This document shows, in pieces, positions 28,737 through 62,098 of a stretch of 64,000 nt of DNA (positions are counted from its first letter, which is position 1; every line of letters starts with the position of its first letter). Under the pieces are notes generated by a model. That model saw nothing but the letters and a program-made list of their open reading frames with translations, searched no databases and had not been told where the DNA came from. The stretch is from a virus. Location of the stretch: the IMG/VR virus record IMGVR_UViG_3300049434_000028, positions 38,798-102,797 of that record. The stretch is one strand, 5' to 3'. Both the position numbers and the translations under genes were made by a program.

Positions 28737-29541
28737 CGCCAAGCCTCCGCGCCAGACCGCCCTGCGCGACTGCCTTGGTCGACTTGCGCCCACGCAGCTC
28801 CAGCCCTACGTCGAACAGCGCGGGCTGCGCGCCCCGAGCGGCGTACGACGCGGAGGCCTTGGCCTGGCGTTCGGCGCTCGGCGAACCCACACGCTCCTTC
28901 TCGAAGTTCTTCGCGAACGTCTTGCTGGCGGCGTCGCCCATGTTGTTGGACCAGCGCAGCGGGTTGGTGGAGAAGTCGGGGCTCGGCCGCCCGCGGCGAT
29001 CCCGCCAGTTGCGCTCGGCGAAGTTCTCAGCGAAGCCCTCATCCGCGCCCTTGCGCGCCACGGTGTTGTACTCCGAGGAGGCGCGGCCGGTGATCCGGCT
29101 GACGTGGTGGCCGATCTCGTGGATGGGGGTCGTGGTGCCCTCCTGGCCAGGTGCGACCGTGACGCGCGAGAACGGGTGCTCCGTCCAGGTGGCCTGGTCC
29201 ATCCGGCGGCCGTGCTGGTACATGCCGCCGATCTGCAGCCCCGCGGCCATCCCGCGCTTGCGGCCCATGCCGGTGTCGGCGGGCTTGAACTCCAGGTCCG
29301 TCAGCCGGTTCGCCGGAGCCGTGCTGCGAGCGACGTTCTCGATGATCGCGCGCGTCTGCGGAGAGTCGCGCATTGCTGCACGCGTGCTCGGGTGAATCGA
29401 GTTGAGCACGTCGCGCTGGCGCTCGGGCGTGTACCCGCGCGGGTAACGCTGCGCGTTGTTGCCCTGGAAGAGCGTCCCCTGGCTGTTCGGGGCCGCCTTC
29501 ATGTTGGTCTGCATGCGGAACTGCTGCCCGTTCAGCGTCAT
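28729..29541 (-). CDS. HExxH metallopeptidase-like paralogue 3
   Basis: 270 residues, ATG overlapping the terminase stop region by four bases (ATGA on the terminase side). Opening MQTNMKAAPNSQGTLFQG, RYPRGYTPERQ and ARSTAP blocks match the other two. The zinc motif is HEIGH (141-145) with DEGFAENFAE (167-176). It is the copy nearest the terminase and the shortest. The strictly kept metal ligands argue for activity in all three. Confidence 0.7.
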   Translation of the reverse strand: MTLNGQQFRMQTNMKAAPNSQGTLFQGNNAQRYPRGYTPERQRDVLNSIHPSTRAAMRDSPQTRAIIENVARSTAPANRLTDLEFKPADTGMGRKRGMAAGLQIGGMYQHGRRMDQATWTEHPFSRVTVAPGQEGTTTPIHEIGHHVSRITGRASSEYNTVARKGADEGFAENFAERNWRDRRGRPSPDFSTNPLRWSNNMGDAASKTFAKNFEKERVGSPSAERQAKASASYAARGAQPALFDVGLELRGRKSTKAVAQGGLARRLGDG

Positions 29542-31112
29542 CGCGCGCTCCGCTGGTAGAACGGCGAGTGGGTCTGCTCCACCTCGGCCATGGTCCAGTC
29601 TTTCGTGAGGTAACAGCCGATCGCGAGAGAGTCCGGGTAGTCGTCGTGGGCCTCGGCCTCCTCTGGCGCGGCGGCCAGCAGGAACTTCCCCTGGTACTTC
29701 TTCTCCAAGTCCTTCATCTGGCCCTCGAACCGGCGCCAGGTGCGCAGACGGCGGGTCTTGGCGTGCCCCGGCCAGGACACCATCCCGCGACCGATCAGCT
29801 CCGAAAGGTGCTTCCAGCGCGCCGACTGCTCGGAGCTGGACGAGCCCATCGCCACTACCTCCAGCTCGGGCATGAGGCGCGCCAGGCGGTCCGCCACGAC
29901 GTCACCGATGCCCTGCGCGTCGATGCCGAGCTTCACACCGCTGTACGCGCGGCAGAAGTCGACGATCTTGCCGTACTGCTCCTCCCACTGGTCTCCGTGG
30001 ATCTCCAGCCAGTTCAGGACGCGGTGGTCGTAGTAGCCGAACTCATCCGGCCGCGACCAATCCACCCAGATCGCGGTGAGCACCGTGGAGTCCAGCTTGC
30101 GCGCGACGTCGAGACCGAACACGATCGGCGTGCCGTGGTAGCTCTTGACTATCTCCATCGACTTATCTGACAGTTCGTCAATTCGTTCCTCTGTCGTGAA
30201 CATGCCTCGATCGAGCAGCCACTTCAGGCAGTACGACATCTGGAACTCGTCGCTGTCCGCGCCGATGCGCGCCATCTCCTTGCGCACGAACTTCTCGTAG
30301 TTGGCGTTGTACTTGGCGCAGATCTTCCAGTCGTTCTGGAAATGACACTGCCTCGCGCCCCTGCGCGTCTGGCGTCGCTGGTTGTGCCGGATCGCCTTGT
30401 AGAAGTCCCCCTTGTGGATGTCGGGGGTGCCGGTCTTGACGATCGTGGCGTTGTAGTACGCGCCCATGGGGTGGATGCTCTTGCGAACCGTGCGCTCGTC
30501 GGCCTTCTGCGCCTCGTCGATGACGATCAGGTGGTAACTCTTCGACTCGATCGACGCCTTGGGGTTGGCGGTCTGCATACGTGCGAACGAGCCGGACTTC
30601 TTCAGCTTGATGAGCTTGCCGCCGCCCTGCACCGCGTCGTCGATCTCAGGGTCGGCCAGCATCTCCAGAGCACGATCGCTGGTCAGCCGGTTCACAATGC
30701 GCCCGTATAGCGTCTCGGCCTGGCTCTCGACGGGTGCGAACGTCCCAACCCAGAACCCGTCCACGAACTTGCCCAGCCAGATCGGGAAGATGCGCGCCAG
30801 CTTCGGCAGCAGGATCATCAGGGCCGCGACTACGTTCGCGATCGTCTCAGTCTTGCCGCTCTGGCGCGAGAACAGCGCCGTCAGCTCCTCGCCGTCGTTG
30901 ATGACGACGCTCTCGATGCACCGGTAGGCGAACTCGCGCTGGTACGGGTGCAAGGCGTGCCCGGCCAGCTCGTCCACGAAGATCAGAATCTTGGTGACGA
31001 GCTGATGGACGAAGTCCGAGTCCTCCTCGGACAGCTCTACGACGTCCTCGTCAAGAGGCACCCCCTCGTCGTCCAGAAGAGGTGCCTCGACGTCATCGAG
31101 CAGAGTGGTCAT
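29538..31112 (-). CDS. terL: Terminase large subunit
   Basis: 524 residues. ATPase: Walker A FSRQSGKTE at 81-89, Walker B LIVIDE at 195-200. Nuclease: acidic residues in GLDVARKLDST (Asp335), GIDAQG (Asp398) and HDDYPDSLA (about 490-496), the RNase-H-like triad. The N-terminal 35 residues are strongly acidic. It pumps DNA through the portal and cuts concatemers. No small terminase was identified in the window. Coupled at both ends (ATGA) to the paralogue 3 and holin-like genes. Confidence 0.92.
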   Translation of the reverse strand: MTTLLDDVEAPLLDDEGVPLDEDVVELSEEDSDFVHQLVTKILIFVDELAGHALHPYQREFAYRCIESVVINDGEELTALFSRQSGKTETIANVVAALMILLPKLARIFPIWLGKFVDGFWVGTFAPVESQAETLYGRIVNRLTSDRALEMLADPEIDDAVQGGGKLIKLKKSGSFARMQTANPKASIESKSYHLIVIDEAQKADERTVRKSIHPMGAYYNATIVKTGTPDIHKGDFYKAIRHNQRRQTRRGARQCHFQNDWKICAKYNANYEKFVRKEMARIGADSDEFQMSYCLKWLLDRGMFTTEERIDELSDKSMEIVKSYHGTPIVFGLDVARKLDSTVLTAIWVDWSRPDEFGYYDHRVLNWLEIHGDQWEEQYGKIVDFCRAYSGVKLGIDAQGIGDVVADRLARLMPELEVVAMGSSSSEQSARWKHLSELIGRGMVSWPGHAKTRRLRTWRRFEGQMKDLEKKYQGKFLLAAAPEEAEAHDDYPDSLAIGCYLTKDWTMAEVEQTHSPFYQRSAR

Positions 31113-47718: not shown

Positions 47719-48384
47719 CTAGCGCTTGATGGTCAGGATGACCGGCGCAGGTTGCGCGGTAGGCGGTGCGTCGAACGTGCACGCCCACGGATCGGTCGGT
47801 ACGGCAGGCGGTGTGCAGGTGCCCTGCGTCGGGGTAGATCCTTTCTCGCCCTGGGGTCCAGCCGGTCCCGCGTCTCCCTTGACACCACGGGGACCGGGAT
47901 CACCCGCTGGGCCCTGGGGACCAGCAGGGCCAGGATCGCCCTGCGTGCCCGGCTGCCCGTCCTTGCCATCCTTACCGTTCTGGCCGTCCTTGCCAGGCGG
48001 GCCCGGATCACCCTGCGGCCCAGGCACACCAGGAGCACCCTGTAGGCCGCGCTCGCCGCGTGCACCCGTTGCTCCCGGCGCACCGGGCAACGCGATGATG
48101 TGCGGAGCTGGGACCACCGGAGTGATGCCCTTGCTGGTGAGCTGCTTGCGCAACGCTGCGATGTCCTCGCTGTACTGAGTGCGCAGATCGTCGAACCCCT
48201 GCTGGTTGCGATCCGCCTTGGTGACCGCACGATTGACACCGAAGATGACGTAGACCACGACCAGCACCGCGAGCACGAACACAGCGATTGCGAAGAACAA
48301 GAACTTACGACCCATCACATGGTTGAGGGGAGCACGTTCGACGACCTCTACGGTCGGCTCTTCATCCAGCTCCAGCATGTTCAT
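47719..48384 (-). CDS. Membrane-anchored collagen-like protein
   Basis: 221 residues. Acidic N-terminus, one strong transmembrane helix (about 25-48), a coiled-coil-like stretch, then about 25 Gly-x-y triplets (residues 100-180, [19 protein letters not shown] and so on) and a Pro/Cys-rich end. A type II membrane protein with a collagen stalk is unusual in a phage; it may be a host-surface or infection-modifying protein. It is not in the tail block. Confidence 0.6.
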
Positions 48385-49884: not shown

Positions 49885-51357
49885 TTACTCGGCCTTGCCC
49901 TGGATGACACGGCCGAGCACGCGGTCGGTGTCCTGCGGGCCTAGCTGCGTGGCGATGGGATTGGCCAGGTCGGCCGCCTTCTCGCCGAACAGCCGGGACA
50001 ACACGCCGCTCTTGCCCTTGGCCTCCACCGACATGCGGAAGAACTCGCGATCGTCCTCCAGCTCGGCCTGCACCTGGAACGTCTTGAGCAGCCGATCGAA
50101 CTCCTGGCTGGTGTTCGGGTCGGCGTAGCCGCCGGACAGCTCCTCGCGAAAGCGCATGAACGCCAGCCGCTGGGCTTGCATCTCGACCATGCCGTTCATC
50201 AACGCCTTGCGCTGGCTGGCCGTGCGCACCTCGATCGGCAGGTCATAGGAGCAGCTCGTGTCCTCCTTGAACGCCGGGCACTCCGCACGCACGAAGCAGG
50301 TGTTGCAGACGCGCTGCGGGGTGCTGGAGACGACCGGCAGCGAGGTGCGCACCATCTGGTTGGAGCCGGAGTCGATGGCCTCCTCGTGCGTGAATCCGAA
50401 CACCGGCAGAGTGCGCATCTCTGCTGCGTCACGCATGCGCAGGGCAACTGGTTCTTTCCGTGCCCCTTCCGACAACTGGGCAACTGCTGCACCAGGACCC
50501 TCTAGCGCCTGGCCAACCTCCTGCGCACCACGACGGGTTACCCGCTCACCATTCATGCTCGCCTCGTACTGCAGCCAGCTCCAGACGCTCACACGCACGA
50601 CCTCGCGAGGATCGTCATCGTTGATCTTCGCCACATCGAAGCCAGCGCGCTCGAAGTCGTTGCGGTGGCGCATGCGCGCCTGGTCCTTCATCTTCATGGG
50701 GTAACGGACGAGCCGCGCGCCGTCCCAGATGATCGTCTCGCCGAAGCGCATAGGGCTCAGCCAGGACGTGCTGCTGGCCGAGCTGAAGCGAACGTGGCGG
50801 ATGGCGTCCGGCCGGGACATGGCCAGCCCGTGCAGCTTGACGCCGCTGTTCGCCAGCTTGTTCAGGTGCGGGGTGATGTTGAGCCCTGGCATGGCGATGT
50901 TGGCCTGCGCGATGCCGACGCGCTTGTAGCGCTCGGCCAGGGCCTCCAGCGCCGTCGCGCCCTGCTCGGGGTGCCACACCGGCAGGAACTGGTCCGGGTC
51001 GATGTGGTCCCACACGTCGCGGCGCATGGCCTCGATGTAGCCCTGTCCGAGCGCCAGGCAGTCGAACTCGCTGACGATGTCGATCTCGTGGATGTGCTCC
51101 TGGGCGAAGTCGGCGTACCCGCGGCCGTACTCCCGCCACTCGCCCTGGGTCAGCTTCCCCGCGTCTTTGTTTGCGGTGAACCCGCCGCTGTCCAGGAAGA
51201 CGCTAGAGAAGCCCCAGTCCATGCTGTAGGCCTTCTTCTTCGGCAGCCGCTTACGCACGGCGTAGTAGCTCAGCCCCACGTTCTCGACGCCCATGTCGCG
51301 CAGCAATGACCGCCACGCCGCTTGTTCGGCGCCGAGGTAGTAGAGGTGGAAGCTCAC
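49885..51357 (-). CDS. tRNA-guanine transglycosylase/DpdA-like protein
   Basis: 490 residues from GTG. N-terminal 270 residues carry TGT-type motifs: FLDSGGF (54-60), IVSEFD near 95, HGLAMSRPDAIRHV near 176-189 and SSTSWL (195-200), as in DpdA enzymes that insert 7-deazaguanine bases into DNA. Where related proteins have SVDSTSW, this one has SASSTSW, so a probable nucleophilic Asp is Ser. The C-terminal part has CNTC, ECP and SC Cys residues (351, 354, 360, 369) suggesting a metal site. No preQ0 synthesis genes are in the window. Activity is uncertain. Confidence 0.65.
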   Translation of the reverse strand: MSFHLYYLGAEQAAWRSLLRDMGVENVGLSYYAVRKRLPKKKAYSMDWGFSSVFLDSGGFTANKDAGKLTQGEWREYGRGYADFAQEHIHEIDIVSEFDCLALGQGYIEAMRRDVWDHIDPDQFLPVWHPEQGATALEALAERYKRVGIAQANIAMPGLNITPHLNKLANSGVKLHGLAMSRPDAIRHVRFSSASSTSWLSPMRFGETIIWDGARLVRYPMKMKDQARMRHRNDFERAGFDVAKINDDDPREVVRVSVWSWLQYEASMNGERVTRRGAQEVGQALEGPGAAVAQLSEGARKEPVALRMRDAAEMRTLPVFGFTHEEAIDSGSNQMVRTSLPVVSSTPQRVCNTCFVRAECPAFKEDTSCSYDLPIEVRTASQRKALMNGMVEMQAQRLAFMRFREELSGGYADPNTSQEFDRLLKTFQVQAELEDDREFFRMSVEAKGKSGVLSRLFGEKAADLANPIATQLGPQDTDRVLGRVIQGKAE

Positions 51358-52713: not shown

Positions 52714-52940
52714 CAGATCCACACCTCCCCGTTGAACACGAGATCAGCGGTCAGCGTGATGGTGCGATCCTTCTCGCCCAACCGGACCCCGACATCGGTG
52801 CGCTCCAGGTTGTCGCCGTTCCTGCGCATGACTGTCACGTCTGCAACCTTGCGAGCCCACGGCCGCCGAGCAACGGTGATCTCGAAGCGACCGTCGACCG
52901 GCTTCCAGTCTTCCTCGGTGAACACGATGAGCGTCCTCAT
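52713..52940 (-). CDS. Small beta-rich protein
   Basis: 75 residues, MRTLIVFTEEDWKPVDGRFE: Val/Thr/Arg strands with a WARKVADVTVMRR core. Coupled to the ribbon-helix-helix gene (ATGA). Unknown. Confidence 0.5.
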   Translation of the reverse strand: MRTLIVFTEEDWKPVDGRFEITVARRPWARKVADVTVMRRNGDNLERTDVGVRLGEKDRTITLTADLVFNGEVWI

Positions 52941-53302
52941 CCCAGCATCTCCAGCAGTTCGATCTGCTTCTCGATCGCGAACCGCTCGATCGGGTTGTCG
53001 ATCCCGCCCAGCCGGTTGCGCAGAGCGTTGAGCTTCTGAGCCCTAGTCAGGTTGCTGCTGATGCCGAGCGCCTCGATGACCGCAGGCGATTCCTGCTGCG
53101 CGGGAACGGCACGCATGTGCGCCTCGGACTCGGCCAGGTCGGCCTCCAGCTCCTCGCTGCGCTGCTCGATGTAGCGCTGCCGCAGGAACTCGTTGACGAC
53201 CGCCGAAACGTTGGTGCCCTCGGCAGCAGTGCCCTCCATCGCCCTGTCCCACAGCTCGTCGCTGATGCGGATGTTCCGCTTGGTCGTACCCCTACTCGGC
53301 AT
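52937..53302 (-). CDS. Ribbon-helix-helix-type DNA-binding protein
   Basis: 121 residues. RNIRISDELWDRAMEGTAAE, then TNVSAVVNEFLRQRYIEQR: the strand plus two helices of Arc/CopG regulators. C-terminal helix EKQIELLEMLG may oligomerise. Likely a repressor acting on early genes; overlapped by the next gene. Confidence 0.7.
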   Translation of the reverse strand: MPSRGTTKRNIRISDELWDRAMEGTAAEGTNVSAVVNEFLRQRYIEQRSEELEADLAESEAHMRAVPAQQESPAVIEALGISSNLTRAQKLNALRNRLGGIDNPIERFAIEKQIELLEMLG

Positions 53303-59339: not shown

Positions 59340-59846
59340 TCATGCTTCATGTAGGTCCGCCGTCGTTGGAGTCACGACCTGCCCACGCAGGAGCCGCTGA
59401 CTCTCCATCTCGGCCTCGATCGTCACCCATTCACGGATCTCACGTCGGGCCCCTGGCCTGAATTCTGGCCTAGCGAACGCCGGGGACGCGAACAGCAGGC
59501 CGGTCACGCCGAGCCGCATCACCTCCGCGATCACCGCGGGGCTGGAATCCACGACCAGGTCGATCGGGTAGCCCATGCTGCGCAGCTCGGTGAGCTGGTG
59601 CCCGCGCTGCTCGGCGAGGGTGGCAGAGCCGGGCGGCGGACCCATCACCGAGACGTGGTCGCGCACCTCGTTGCGCATCAGCCAGTGCTCGATCAGAACG
59701 GTGTCCACGAGCTGCGTGACCAGCACGATCTTGTGAACCTTCCGCAGGGCGCCGTACAGCCGCATGCCCTCGACGATTGGAGCGCCGAGTGCGGTGTCAT
59801 TGCGCGCCAGCACGCCCTCGATCGCGATCAGTGCGTAGCCCGCCAT
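59340..59846 (-). CDS. HAD-like protein with degenerate motif I
   Basis: 168 residues. LIAIEGVL (6-13) takes the place of the HAD DxDGVL motif I, with Ala8 and Glu10 for the two Asp. Later KIVLVTQL and DLVVDSSPAV resemble motifs II and IV. The fold is HAD-like but the nucleophile is missing, so it may be a binding or regulatory protein. Confidence 0.55.
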   Translation of the reverse strand: MAGYALIAIEGVLARNDTALGAPIVEGMRLYGALRKVHKIVLVTQLVDTVLIEHWLMRNEVRDHVSVMGPPPGSATLAEQRGHQLTELRSMGYPIDLVVDSSPAVIAEVMRLGVTGLLFASPAFARPEFRPGARREIREWVTIEAEMESQRLLRGQVVTPTTADLHEA

Positions 59847-60082
59847 CAGTACTCCCCCGATCCTGGGTAACGGTGGCGCTTCGCGCTCACCTGCACGCGC
59901 ATCTCACCATGGTGGTCGGCCGGGTGCGCCGGAATGACCGGCCGCTGCTCCCGCTTGCCCTCGGCGTGGATCCAGACCTTGGCCGTGGACGTAACCTTGC
60001 GCCCGCACACCGGGCAGGTCGTCAACGAGCTTTCCATCGAGACGCTCTGCGAAGCTCTGCAAAGCTGACGTGCCGCAACCAT
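59846..60082 (-). CDS. Small zinc protein
   Basis: 78 residues, ATG overlapping the upstream stop (TGATG). CPVCGRKV and HPADHH form a possible zinc site; basic tail. Unknown. Confidence 0.55.
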   Translation of the reverse strand: MVAARQLCRASQSVSMESSLTTCPVCGRKVTSTAKVWIHAEGKREQRPVIPAHPADHHGEMRVQVSAKRHRYPGSGEY

Positions 60083-61095
60083 CAGGCCTCGCGCGCCACG
60101 ACACGCGTTGCGAGCATCAGCGCGTGCTGCGGATCCAGCAGGCCATTGGCGTAGCACTGGCCCACCGAATCTGAGTGCACGTCATTGTCTATCTGGGCCA
60201 GCGTATGCAGCACCGCGCCGGAGCCGAGCAGCTTGTGCCGCTGCCAGGCCCAGTTGGTGAAGTCCGCGTACCCGTTACCGCCCTCGGAGAACGCGAGCTT
60301 GCGACGGCTGTGGATCTGGGCGAACAGATTGCTGGCGCTACCGATCACCTCGTGCAACGCGGTCAGCGCATTGAGCTGGGACGGCACGTCGTTGTTGGCC
60401 ATCAGCCGGGTGCGCAGCTCGTTGTACCGGCTGCCCAGCTCGCGCGCTCGGCCCACCTCGTAGTCGACCTGGTCCAGCCAGCTCTGCGGCACGTCCAGGT
60501 TTGGGGTCTCGCCCAACTGCGGCGGCCGGACCGTCCACTCGTTCGTGGTCACGTTGTAGGCCGCGTACGGGTTGATCGAGCGGATGTCGGTGGCCTCGGG
60601 GTTGACGTAGAACGTCACCTCGAACGGCGCACCACCCATGGGCAGGACGGCGTTGGCCGTCAGCGGCCACAGCTCGCGGTGGAACTCCTCGTTCATGAAT
60701 CCGGCCATCTCGGCGTCCGAGGTGCCAGCCCACTGCGGGTTGCTCTTGAAGAACACCGGCCAGTCCACGCCGATCAGCACGTCCAGGTCGCCCGGCTGGT
60801 CGCCGACGCCCCGGCCGCCGGACCACTGGTAGGTGATGCCCGAGCCCGCTATCCACACTGTGGACCACCACTGTGGATGCTGGTAGATCCGGTCCCAGTA
60901 GGTGTAAAGCTTGGCCAGCACCCAACGGCGCACCTCGGGCATCAGGACGTCGGAGCCGGGCGCGAACAGCCGCGGGTCCAGGTCCCGTGTCGGCGAGCTG
61001 AAGTAGCCGGACGAGCCCGTCATCCGATCCGGCAGGGCGACCGCCGCCGCCCGTTGGGCGAGGATGTCGTTGTACGGCGTGCCCAACCGGCTCAC
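60082..61095 (-). CDS. Nucleotidyltransferase-fold protein
   Basis: 337 residues from GTG with AGGAG five bases upstream. VWIAGSGITYQWSGGRGVGD (80-99) followed by LDVLIGVDW gives the G-S-G...D-x-D signature of the NTase (Pol-beta-like) fold at about 84-105. C-terminal half is helical with an NLFAQIHSRRKLAFSE stretch. Substrate unknown: could modify tRNA, proteins or nucleotides. No obvious antitoxin partner. Confidence 0.65.
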   Translation of the reverse strand: MSRLGTPYNDILAQRAAAVALPDRMTGSSGYFSSPTRDLDPRLFAPGSDVLMPEVRRWVLAKLYTYWDRIYQHPQWWSTVWIAGSGITYQWSGGRGVGDQPGDLDVLIGVDWPVFFKSNPQWAGTSDAEMAGFMNEEFHRELWPLTANAVLPMGGAPFEVTFYVNPEATDIRSINPYAAYNVTTNEWTVRPPQLGETPNLDVPQSWLDQVDYEVGRARELGSRYNELRTRLMANNDVPSQLNALTALHEVIGSASNLFAQIHSRRKLAFSEGGNGYADFTNWAWQRHKLLGSGAVLHTLAQIDNDVHSDSVGQCYANGLLDPQHALMLATRVVAREA

Positions 61096-61103
61096 GGTGT
61101 CTC

Positions 61104-61562
61104 CTAGCGTCGCGGTACGAGGCCCATCTGCCCTTGGATCTTCTGTGCCATTGCAGCCTGCTGCGCCGCAGCCGCCTGCTGTGCGAGACCCGTCATGACG
61201 CGGTGGGTGGTCTCCTGCCCCGCGATGTCCTTCTGGATGTGCGCGGCGGCCGAGAACATGTCCGAGAACGTGGCCGGACGAGCCAGCGAGAGGTTCTCCA
61301 GCACGCCCAGCTCGCTGGAAGCCTGCACGTTGCCCTCGTGGTCCAGGACGACGATGAACGCCGTCAGGACCGCGGTGTAGTTCGGCACGACGGGGGTGCT
61401 GTCGTCGGCGGCGGCCTGTGCCTGCAGCAACGCCAGCTTCTCCTCCGTGCTCATCTCCTGCGCCGCCTGGAACTCCTGCTCCGCTGCAGTCCTGGCCTGT
61501 GCACGCTTGTCGGTCACCTTGGGCGCTCCGTAGTTCGGATCGCCCTGCTCTTTCATCTCCAT
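61104..61562 (-). CDS. Gln/Ala-rich helical protein
   Basis: 152 residues. Acidic N-terminus (AEQEFQAAQEMSTEEKLALL), a beta stretch (YTAVLTAFIVVLDHEGNVQA) and an Ala/Gln-rich helical end. Function unknown; possible scaffold-like or structural. Confidence 0.5.
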   Translation of the reverse strand: MEMKEQGDPNYGAPKVTDKRAQARTAAEQEFQAAQEMSTEEKLALLQAQAAADDSTPVVPNYTAVLTAFIVVLDHEGNVQASSELGVLENLSLARPATFSDMFSAAAHIQKDIAGQETTHRVMTGLAQQAAAAQQAAMAQKIQGQMGLVPRR

Positions 61563-61573
61563 GTGATGTCCCG

Positions 61574-62098
61574 TCAGAATTGGTGGTTGGCATTCGCGTT
61601 GAGCTTGGCCTGATCGACGGCCTGTTGCACCGGACAGAAGCTGCACAGGTAGATCTTGGGCCCGCCGCCCGTGAAATCCTGCCCGGTCTCCCGGCTGAGC
61701 TGCCGCCGAGCGGACGCAGCCGGATTGCCAAGCCGCTTGCTGCTGTCCTGGTAGTCGATGCAGGGGACGGAGCGTCGGTGGGCCGCGAAGCACTTCGCCG
61801 CGTCCTCCTGCATCGTGCTCTTGGTGTGGTAGTACTCCGGCACGAATCCCTTGGTGTCCGCCCACATCTGACGGTGAATCTGCATCCGAATCGTGCGGTC
61901 CTCCCAGTGCGCCTTCTCGACCCGCATCAAGGTGCGGGTATGCGGCTGCTGGGTCTGGCCGCCGTGCTTCTCGTCCGCGTACTGCAGGATGACGTCGTCC
62001 TCCGGCAGGCCGGTAAAGTCCGGCAGCTCCTCGACGGACTTGCAATCCCAGCATTGGAGCAGGCGCAGGCAGGGGCCGGTCTTGACCGTGGTGTCCAT
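61574..62098 (-). CDS. Cys-rich actinophage-type protein
   Basis: 174 residues. CWDC (about 16-19) and CSFC near 151 form the termini of a possible metal site; the centre has HRQMWADTKGFVPEYYHTKS. Similar proteins recur in actinophage genomes. Unknown function. Confidence 0.55.
   Translation of the reverse strand: MDTTVKTGPCLRLLQCWDCKSVEELPDFTGLPEDDVILQYADEKHGGQTQQPHTRTLMRVEKAHWEDRTIRMQIHRQMWADTKGFVPEYYHTKSTMQEDAAKCFAAHRRSVPCIDYQDSSKRLGNPAASARRQLSRETGQDFTGGGPKIYLCSFCPVQQAVDQAKLNANANHQF

Follow-up and report, generated by a model that had tools for sequence, protein, structure and literature searches.

A DpdA-like phage protein family without the nucleophile aspartate, a candidate nucleic-acid-binding pseudoenzyme

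Introduction

What does a DpdA-like protein do once it has lost the aspartate on which guanine exchange depends? The question is raised by a gene in a 64,000-nucleotide stretch of viral DNA (the window), which corresponds to positions 38798-102797 of a 102,797-bp virus contig. A first-pass annotation had placed the product in the TGT/DpdA family from its motifs, with Ser in place of the likely catalytic Asp, and had offered three options: the protein is inactive, uses another residue or acts on a new substrate. The nucleophile of TGT is Asp280, and Asp102 aids product formation; the enzyme requires both, and both are lost in the non-catalytic QTRT2 (PMC6165067). The DpdA of phage 9g is the founding phage DpdA, and a survey in 2019 left the functional divergence of singleton DpdAs open (PMC6884629). 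Here we describe the architecture, the family-wide residues, the selection and the genomic surroundings of this protein, and weigh what it may do.

Results and Discussion

Gene, protein and viral record

The open reading frame at 49885..51357 of the window is real and lies on the minus strand, with a GTG start at 51357 and a stop at 49885, and it encodes 490 residues. The plus strand of the same interval contains no open frame. The protein consists of a barrel, a linker and a C-terminal Cys4/helical module. Residues 1-270 (50548..51357, minus) form the TGT/DpdA-like (beta/alpha) barrel, as indicated by AlphaFold2 (AF2), by Foldseek against BFVD and by hhalign. Residues 271-344 (50326..50547, minus) form a variable linker that is modelled with low confidence (AF2 pLDDT 31-57). 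The C-terminal module contains a probable metal-binding cluster, C351-x2-C354-x5-C360-x8-C369 (50251..50307, minus), and a predicted helical hairpin at residues 380-434 (50056..50220, minus) with the pattern QxxR...E...GGYxDPNxSxExDRL, which is seen in the AF2 model and which is a gene of its own in gut phages. The motifs are where the first-pass annotation put them, namely DSGG at residues 56-59, HGLAMSRPDAI at 176-186 and SASSTSW at 193-199, and the four-Cys segment downstream of them is made of Cys351, Cys354, Cys360 and Cys369.

The head and tail genes of the record match those of Streptomyces phage GiJojo, with identities of 73% for the major capsid protein, 55% for the portal and 51% for the terminase. 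The record is therefore distantly related to the BRock/GiJojo phages.

The barrel is related to phage DpdA

The proposed kinship with TGT/DpdA is borne out by profile comparisons. The phrog_887 profile, labelled 'queuine tRNA-ribosyltransferase' and including the window protein as a member, covers residues 4-481 with E=6e-68, and a profile-profile comparison (hhalign) of the family with six Asp-type DpdAs gives 99% and E=6.9e-18. The DpdA-like identity is thus above chance. In addition, the DpdA profile match reaches a score of 135 against at most 25 in 100 column-shuffled controls. The homology runs as a chain from the window protein via the gut-phage DpdAs of MT835752 and BS162P1, which share phrog_887 with its family, to the DpdAs of 9g and Bipper.

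AF2 was run on an alignment of 42 sequences. Residues 1-270 are a confident barrel with pLDDT mostly 80-97, and the rest is poorly resolved. With this model, the Foldseek matches in BFVD are phage proteins, many of them labelled 'queuine tRNA-ribosyltransferase'. Searches of Pfam, PADLOC and PDB sequences with the window protein gave no match, nor did an IMG/VR search with P0001 as lone query. The NCBIfam DpdA profile matched one of 42 family members, weakly (E 0.036).

The window protein has a TGT-like barrel with DpdA-specific motifs. Its family shares with the phage DpdAs of the 9g type (phrog_7068) and of the Bacteroides phage BS162P1 type the barrel fold, DSG(G/A), the equivalent of His196, the GLA/GFG loop and the motif S-x-x-S/T-x-S/T-W followed by a Gly. 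It differs from them in the missing nucleophile Asp, in the fused Cys4/helical module and in having no preQ0 genes in the tested records. His196 is a feature of the 9g-type DpdA subfamily and is missing in DpdA2 (PMC6884629). It aligns with H176 of the window protein (codon 50830..50832, minus), which is His in 122 of 125 relatives and in all seven Asp-type DpdAs. Full-length homologues within phrog_887 are BRock gp36 and GiJojo gp181, which are 36-40% identical and have the same architecture.

The nucleophile aspartate is absent throughout the family

For the residue analysis, 125 distinct relatives were collected from Streptomyces phages BRock, GiJojo and their kin and from IMG/VR contigs, and an alignment with seven Asp-type DpdAs was examined as well. 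The comparison confirms the change from Asp to Ser: the window protein reads SASSTSW in place of S-x-D-S-x-x-W, and S195 (codon 50773..50775, minus) stands at the position of the nucleophile, which is Asp280 in TGT, D215 in the DpdA of phage 9g and the Asp of S-x-D-S in DpdA generally. This column is Asp in 7/7 Asp-type DpdAs and in 0/125 relatives, where it is Ser in 109, Ala in 10, Thr in three, His in two and Leu in one. The loss is a trait of the whole family, beyond a single phage, and this rules out a sequencing error or a one-off mutation. The Asp is not supplied by a neighbouring residue either, since residues 190-202 contain no acid. The annotation of phrog_887 implies catalysis, but the residues do not back it, and the fused members examined also lack the Asp.

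In a tree of 46 fused and seven Asp-type barrels, the two groups are parted by one branch (SH-aLRT 99; some terminal branches are long), with a single change between Asp and non-Asp. In 7UI4, a solved DNA-guanine transglycosylase, the S-x-D-S motif falls on S-I-D-S, with a weak match (E 1.3). The gut-phage DpdA at 5518-7716 of L090 (MT835482.1) carries an intein inside this motif, between FFSSDS and TTWLGG, and QueC-like and Cys4 genes adjoin it. Inteins tend to sit at active sites, and the position is in keeping with the motif being the active site.

The second TGT aspartate, Asp102, corresponds to the Asp of DSGG. It is Asp in 7/7 Asp-type DpdAs and is kept as D56 in the window protein (codon 51190..51192, minus). 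Among the 125 relatives this position is Asp in 51, His in 34, Glu in 31, Tyr in five and Ser in four.

Could the protein be an ordinary active DpdA after all, with Ser195 as the nucleophile and with preQ0 taken from the host? Ser is the commonest residue at this position, and other singleton DpdAs may draw on host preQ0 (PMC6884629). However, Ser and Ala interchange here in several lineages among relatives whose barrels are 75-81% identical, and BRock has Ser where GiJojo has Ala. Ser195 is therefore not a conserved nucleophile. An Ala cannot act as one, and we regard this explanation as extremely improbable.

preQ0 genes, tRNA genes and a possible partner

The first-pass annotation had found no QueC/QueD/QueE/FolE-type genes in the window, and by profile search this extends to the whole 102.8-kb record, in which PF06508, PF01242, PF01227, PF04055 and PF01702 have no match. 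Neither TGT nor QueC, QueD, FolE or a radical-SAM protein is detected there. QueC, QueD and Asp-type (9g, phrog_7068) DpdA are likewise found in 0/24 family records, which are 91-113 kb long and may be incomplete, while the same three, with DpdA of the 9g type, are all detected in a gut-phage record used as positive control (L107). None of these genes is listed in the examined parts of the annotated GiJojo genome. Genes for preQ0 synthesis are usual in phages with modified DNA, but they are not obligatory.

These searches also bear on a role as non-catalytic partner, in which the protein would stand to a host TGT or DpdA as QTRT2 stands to QTRT1 and would redirect it to phage nucleic acid. TGTs are dimeric, and QTRT2, the non-catalytic subunit of the eukaryotic TGT, is a precedent with a TGT fold that is conserved although both catalytic Asps are replaced (PMC6165067). 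Against this, no catalytic TGT or DpdA is found in the phage's own record or in the 24 relatives, and the accessory domain differs from that of QTRT2. A consistent tRNA link is missing too, as the entire 102.8-kb record has no tRNA gene whereas the related BRock has 29. We hold such a partnership to be very unlikely. A link to phage tRNAs was rejected on the absence of tRNA genes from the window's record.

The C-terminal Cys4/helical module

The same C-terminal Cys4 and helical module is fused to the barrel in 125/125 relatives, with all four Cys present in each of them. Among the best 80 of 525 IMG/VR relatives of the module, all 80 are fused to an Asp-less barrel (four of these as a partial barrel match). 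By comparison, the fused Cys4 and hairpin partner is an adjacent separate gene in other phages: three gut-phage loci have the order QueC, DpdA with the Asp retained and a stand-alone Cys4 gene, with QueE nearby in two of the three. The C-terminal part is poorly modelled (pLDDT 69), and no useful information came from its matches in PDB.

In phages of Gordonia, Tsukamurella and Rhodococcus, the gene immediately upstream of that for the large terminase subunit (TerL) encodes a protein whose C-terminus resembles the module. Several of these proteins are annotated as small terminase, a hint that the window protein may act in packaging or in another late-DNA role. The profile match is 90.6% with E 1.3e-6, and its score of 45.5 compares with a shuffled maximum of 23.2. 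It is conceivable, though unlikely, that the protein is a small-terminase-like packaging protein, in which the Cys4/hairpin part would mark a subunit that recognises DNA for packaging, with the dead barrel as its DNA-reading head. Weak matches to phrog_6902 and phrog_16015 'terminase small subunit' and a Foldseek match to the model of Gordonia phage Jumbo (E 3.9e-5) point the same way, and no other small terminase was recognised beside TerL. However, the profile signal is lost once the Cys4 segment is removed, so the likeness is a lead and not a classification, and the N-terminal half of the Gordonia small terminase gives no profile signal with the window barrel. The position of the gene does not fit well either. 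TerL is encoded at 29538..31112 (minus; phrog_2, E 7e-25; the GiJojo-like terminase mentioned above), about 19 kb from the DpdA-like gene, and in GiJojo the distance is about 73 kb. The Gordonia phage Jumbo, Tsukamurella TIN4 and Rhodococcus Mbo2 proteins named 'terminase small subunit', whose C-terminus resembles the Cys4 and helical module of the window protein (E about 1e-6), are encoded next to TerL, and the annotation of the Gordonia-type proteins as small terminase is itself positional.

A further step would be that, in a widespread group of large phages, a DNA-base-exchange enzyme became a small-terminase-like packaging protein that reads DNA sequence or structure, by loss of the Asp and fusion to its Cys4 neighbour, and that the Gordonia 'small terminases' are a diverged branch of the same protein. 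We consider this quite unlikely. Jumbo gene 6 (L097, 6378-7985) and its counterparts in L098-L104 encode proteins of about 455-545 residues with a Cys4 C-terminus, immediately upstream of TerL.

Selection and probable function

Selection was estimated on metagenomic contigs with a count of the Nei-Gojobori type. Over 30 independent pairs, the barrel has dN/dS of 0.02-0.19 with a median of 0.07, and the values of the C-terminal module are mostly below those of the barrel. Purifying selection on the barrel is strong, and dN/dS of about 0.07 rules out a decaying pseudogene. Outside the lost pair, the polar residues conserved in the family are largely basic (R16, R37, R112, K123, R218, K221, K224 and R228), where K123 and K221 are the family consensus and the window protein has Gln and Met, respectively. 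The basic residues suggest nucleic-acid binding.

As the key residue is lost, a four-Cys tail is gained and strong conservation persists, a different, binding-type job is probable. On balance we favour, with moderate confidence, a pseudoenzyme that derives from phage DpdA, no longer exchanges guanine and has been retained as a protein that binds nucleic acid. Among the options of the first-pass annotation, inactivity thus fits best if it is limited to exchange and the protein is still functional. The use of Ser is disfavoured by the interchange with Ala. As the comparison shows, an ancestral DpdA barrel has lost its nucleophile Asp and occurs fused to the Cys4 and helical-hairpin protein that is a neighbouring gene elsewhere. 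From TGT chemistry, no covalent deoxyribosyl-Asp intermediate would form in such a barrel and base exchange would be dead. Selection would have retained the barrel for a remaining grip on DNA or RNA, and the Cys4/hairpin part may provide a metal-dependent structure, oligomerisation or partner binding late in infection. No modified base would be expected in virion DNA from this protein.

The Asp-less family is large and so far unremarked in the open-access literature. All members of this singleton family have lost the catalytic residue, yet strong selection still acts on the protein, and the cultured phages BRock and GiJojo make the question of divergence directly testable. Many phage genes are labelled 'queuine tRNA-ribosyltransferase' or DpdA-like, which may prompt the inference of modified DNA. 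Our findings argue against predicting DNA modification from such annotation.

Gene neighbourhood and a possible relocated active site

Several observations count against the pseudoenzyme reading. Foldseek of the whole model against PDB returned generic TIM barrels alone and nothing more specific. E97 (codon 51067..51069, minus), which follows a barrel strand in the AF2 model, is near-invariant, being Glu in 123/125 relatives and Asp in the other two. In addition, the neighbourhood, counted in 41 non-redundant relatives, could be that of an enzymatic pathway instead of a structural one. The homologue of GiJojo gp179, called 'hydrolase' there and 'phosphatase' in relatives, adjoins or lies just upstream of the DpdA-like gene in 40/41, usually abutting it. 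Homologues of GiJojo gp178 and of the Cys-rich gp175 are neighbours in 35/41 each, and a ribonucleotide reductase-like gene is found downstream in 32/41. The gp178 homologue contains a motif, GS...PgDLDcL, that we read as nucleotidyltransferase-like. The window carries its homologues of gp179 (59340..59846, minus), gp178 (60082..61731, minus; the true start is probably internal) and gp175 (61574..62098, minus) 8-11 kb upstream of the DpdA-like gene on the same strand, and neither Pfam nor PHROG gives the cassette 59340-62098 an identity at accepted scores. The conserved gene order may reflect either a pathway or common ancestry.

The alternative is a working enzyme with a relocated active site. 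It would use E97, together with H176 and either D99 or residue 56, to act on a new substrate or to catalyse a different reaction, for instance the removal of a base or an exchange of other bases. E97 is the sole candidate for a relocated catalytic acid and takes the place of Asn, Val or Glu in Asp-type DpdAs. Besides H176, W199 (124/125) and G206 (125/125) are fixed, the dN/dS is low and the conserved neighbours look enzymatic. However, position 56 varies as described above and D99 is replaced by Asn, Thr or Ser in relatives, which leaves E97 without a constant acid pair, and the genes for making a substrate were not found. We see a relocated site as the main rival to the pseudoenzyme reading, though an unlikely one.

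Also on the minus strand, the window encodes a collagen-like Gly-X-Y repeat protein at 47719-48384 and an Arc-like repressor at 52937-53302 (phrog_6506, E 5e-6).
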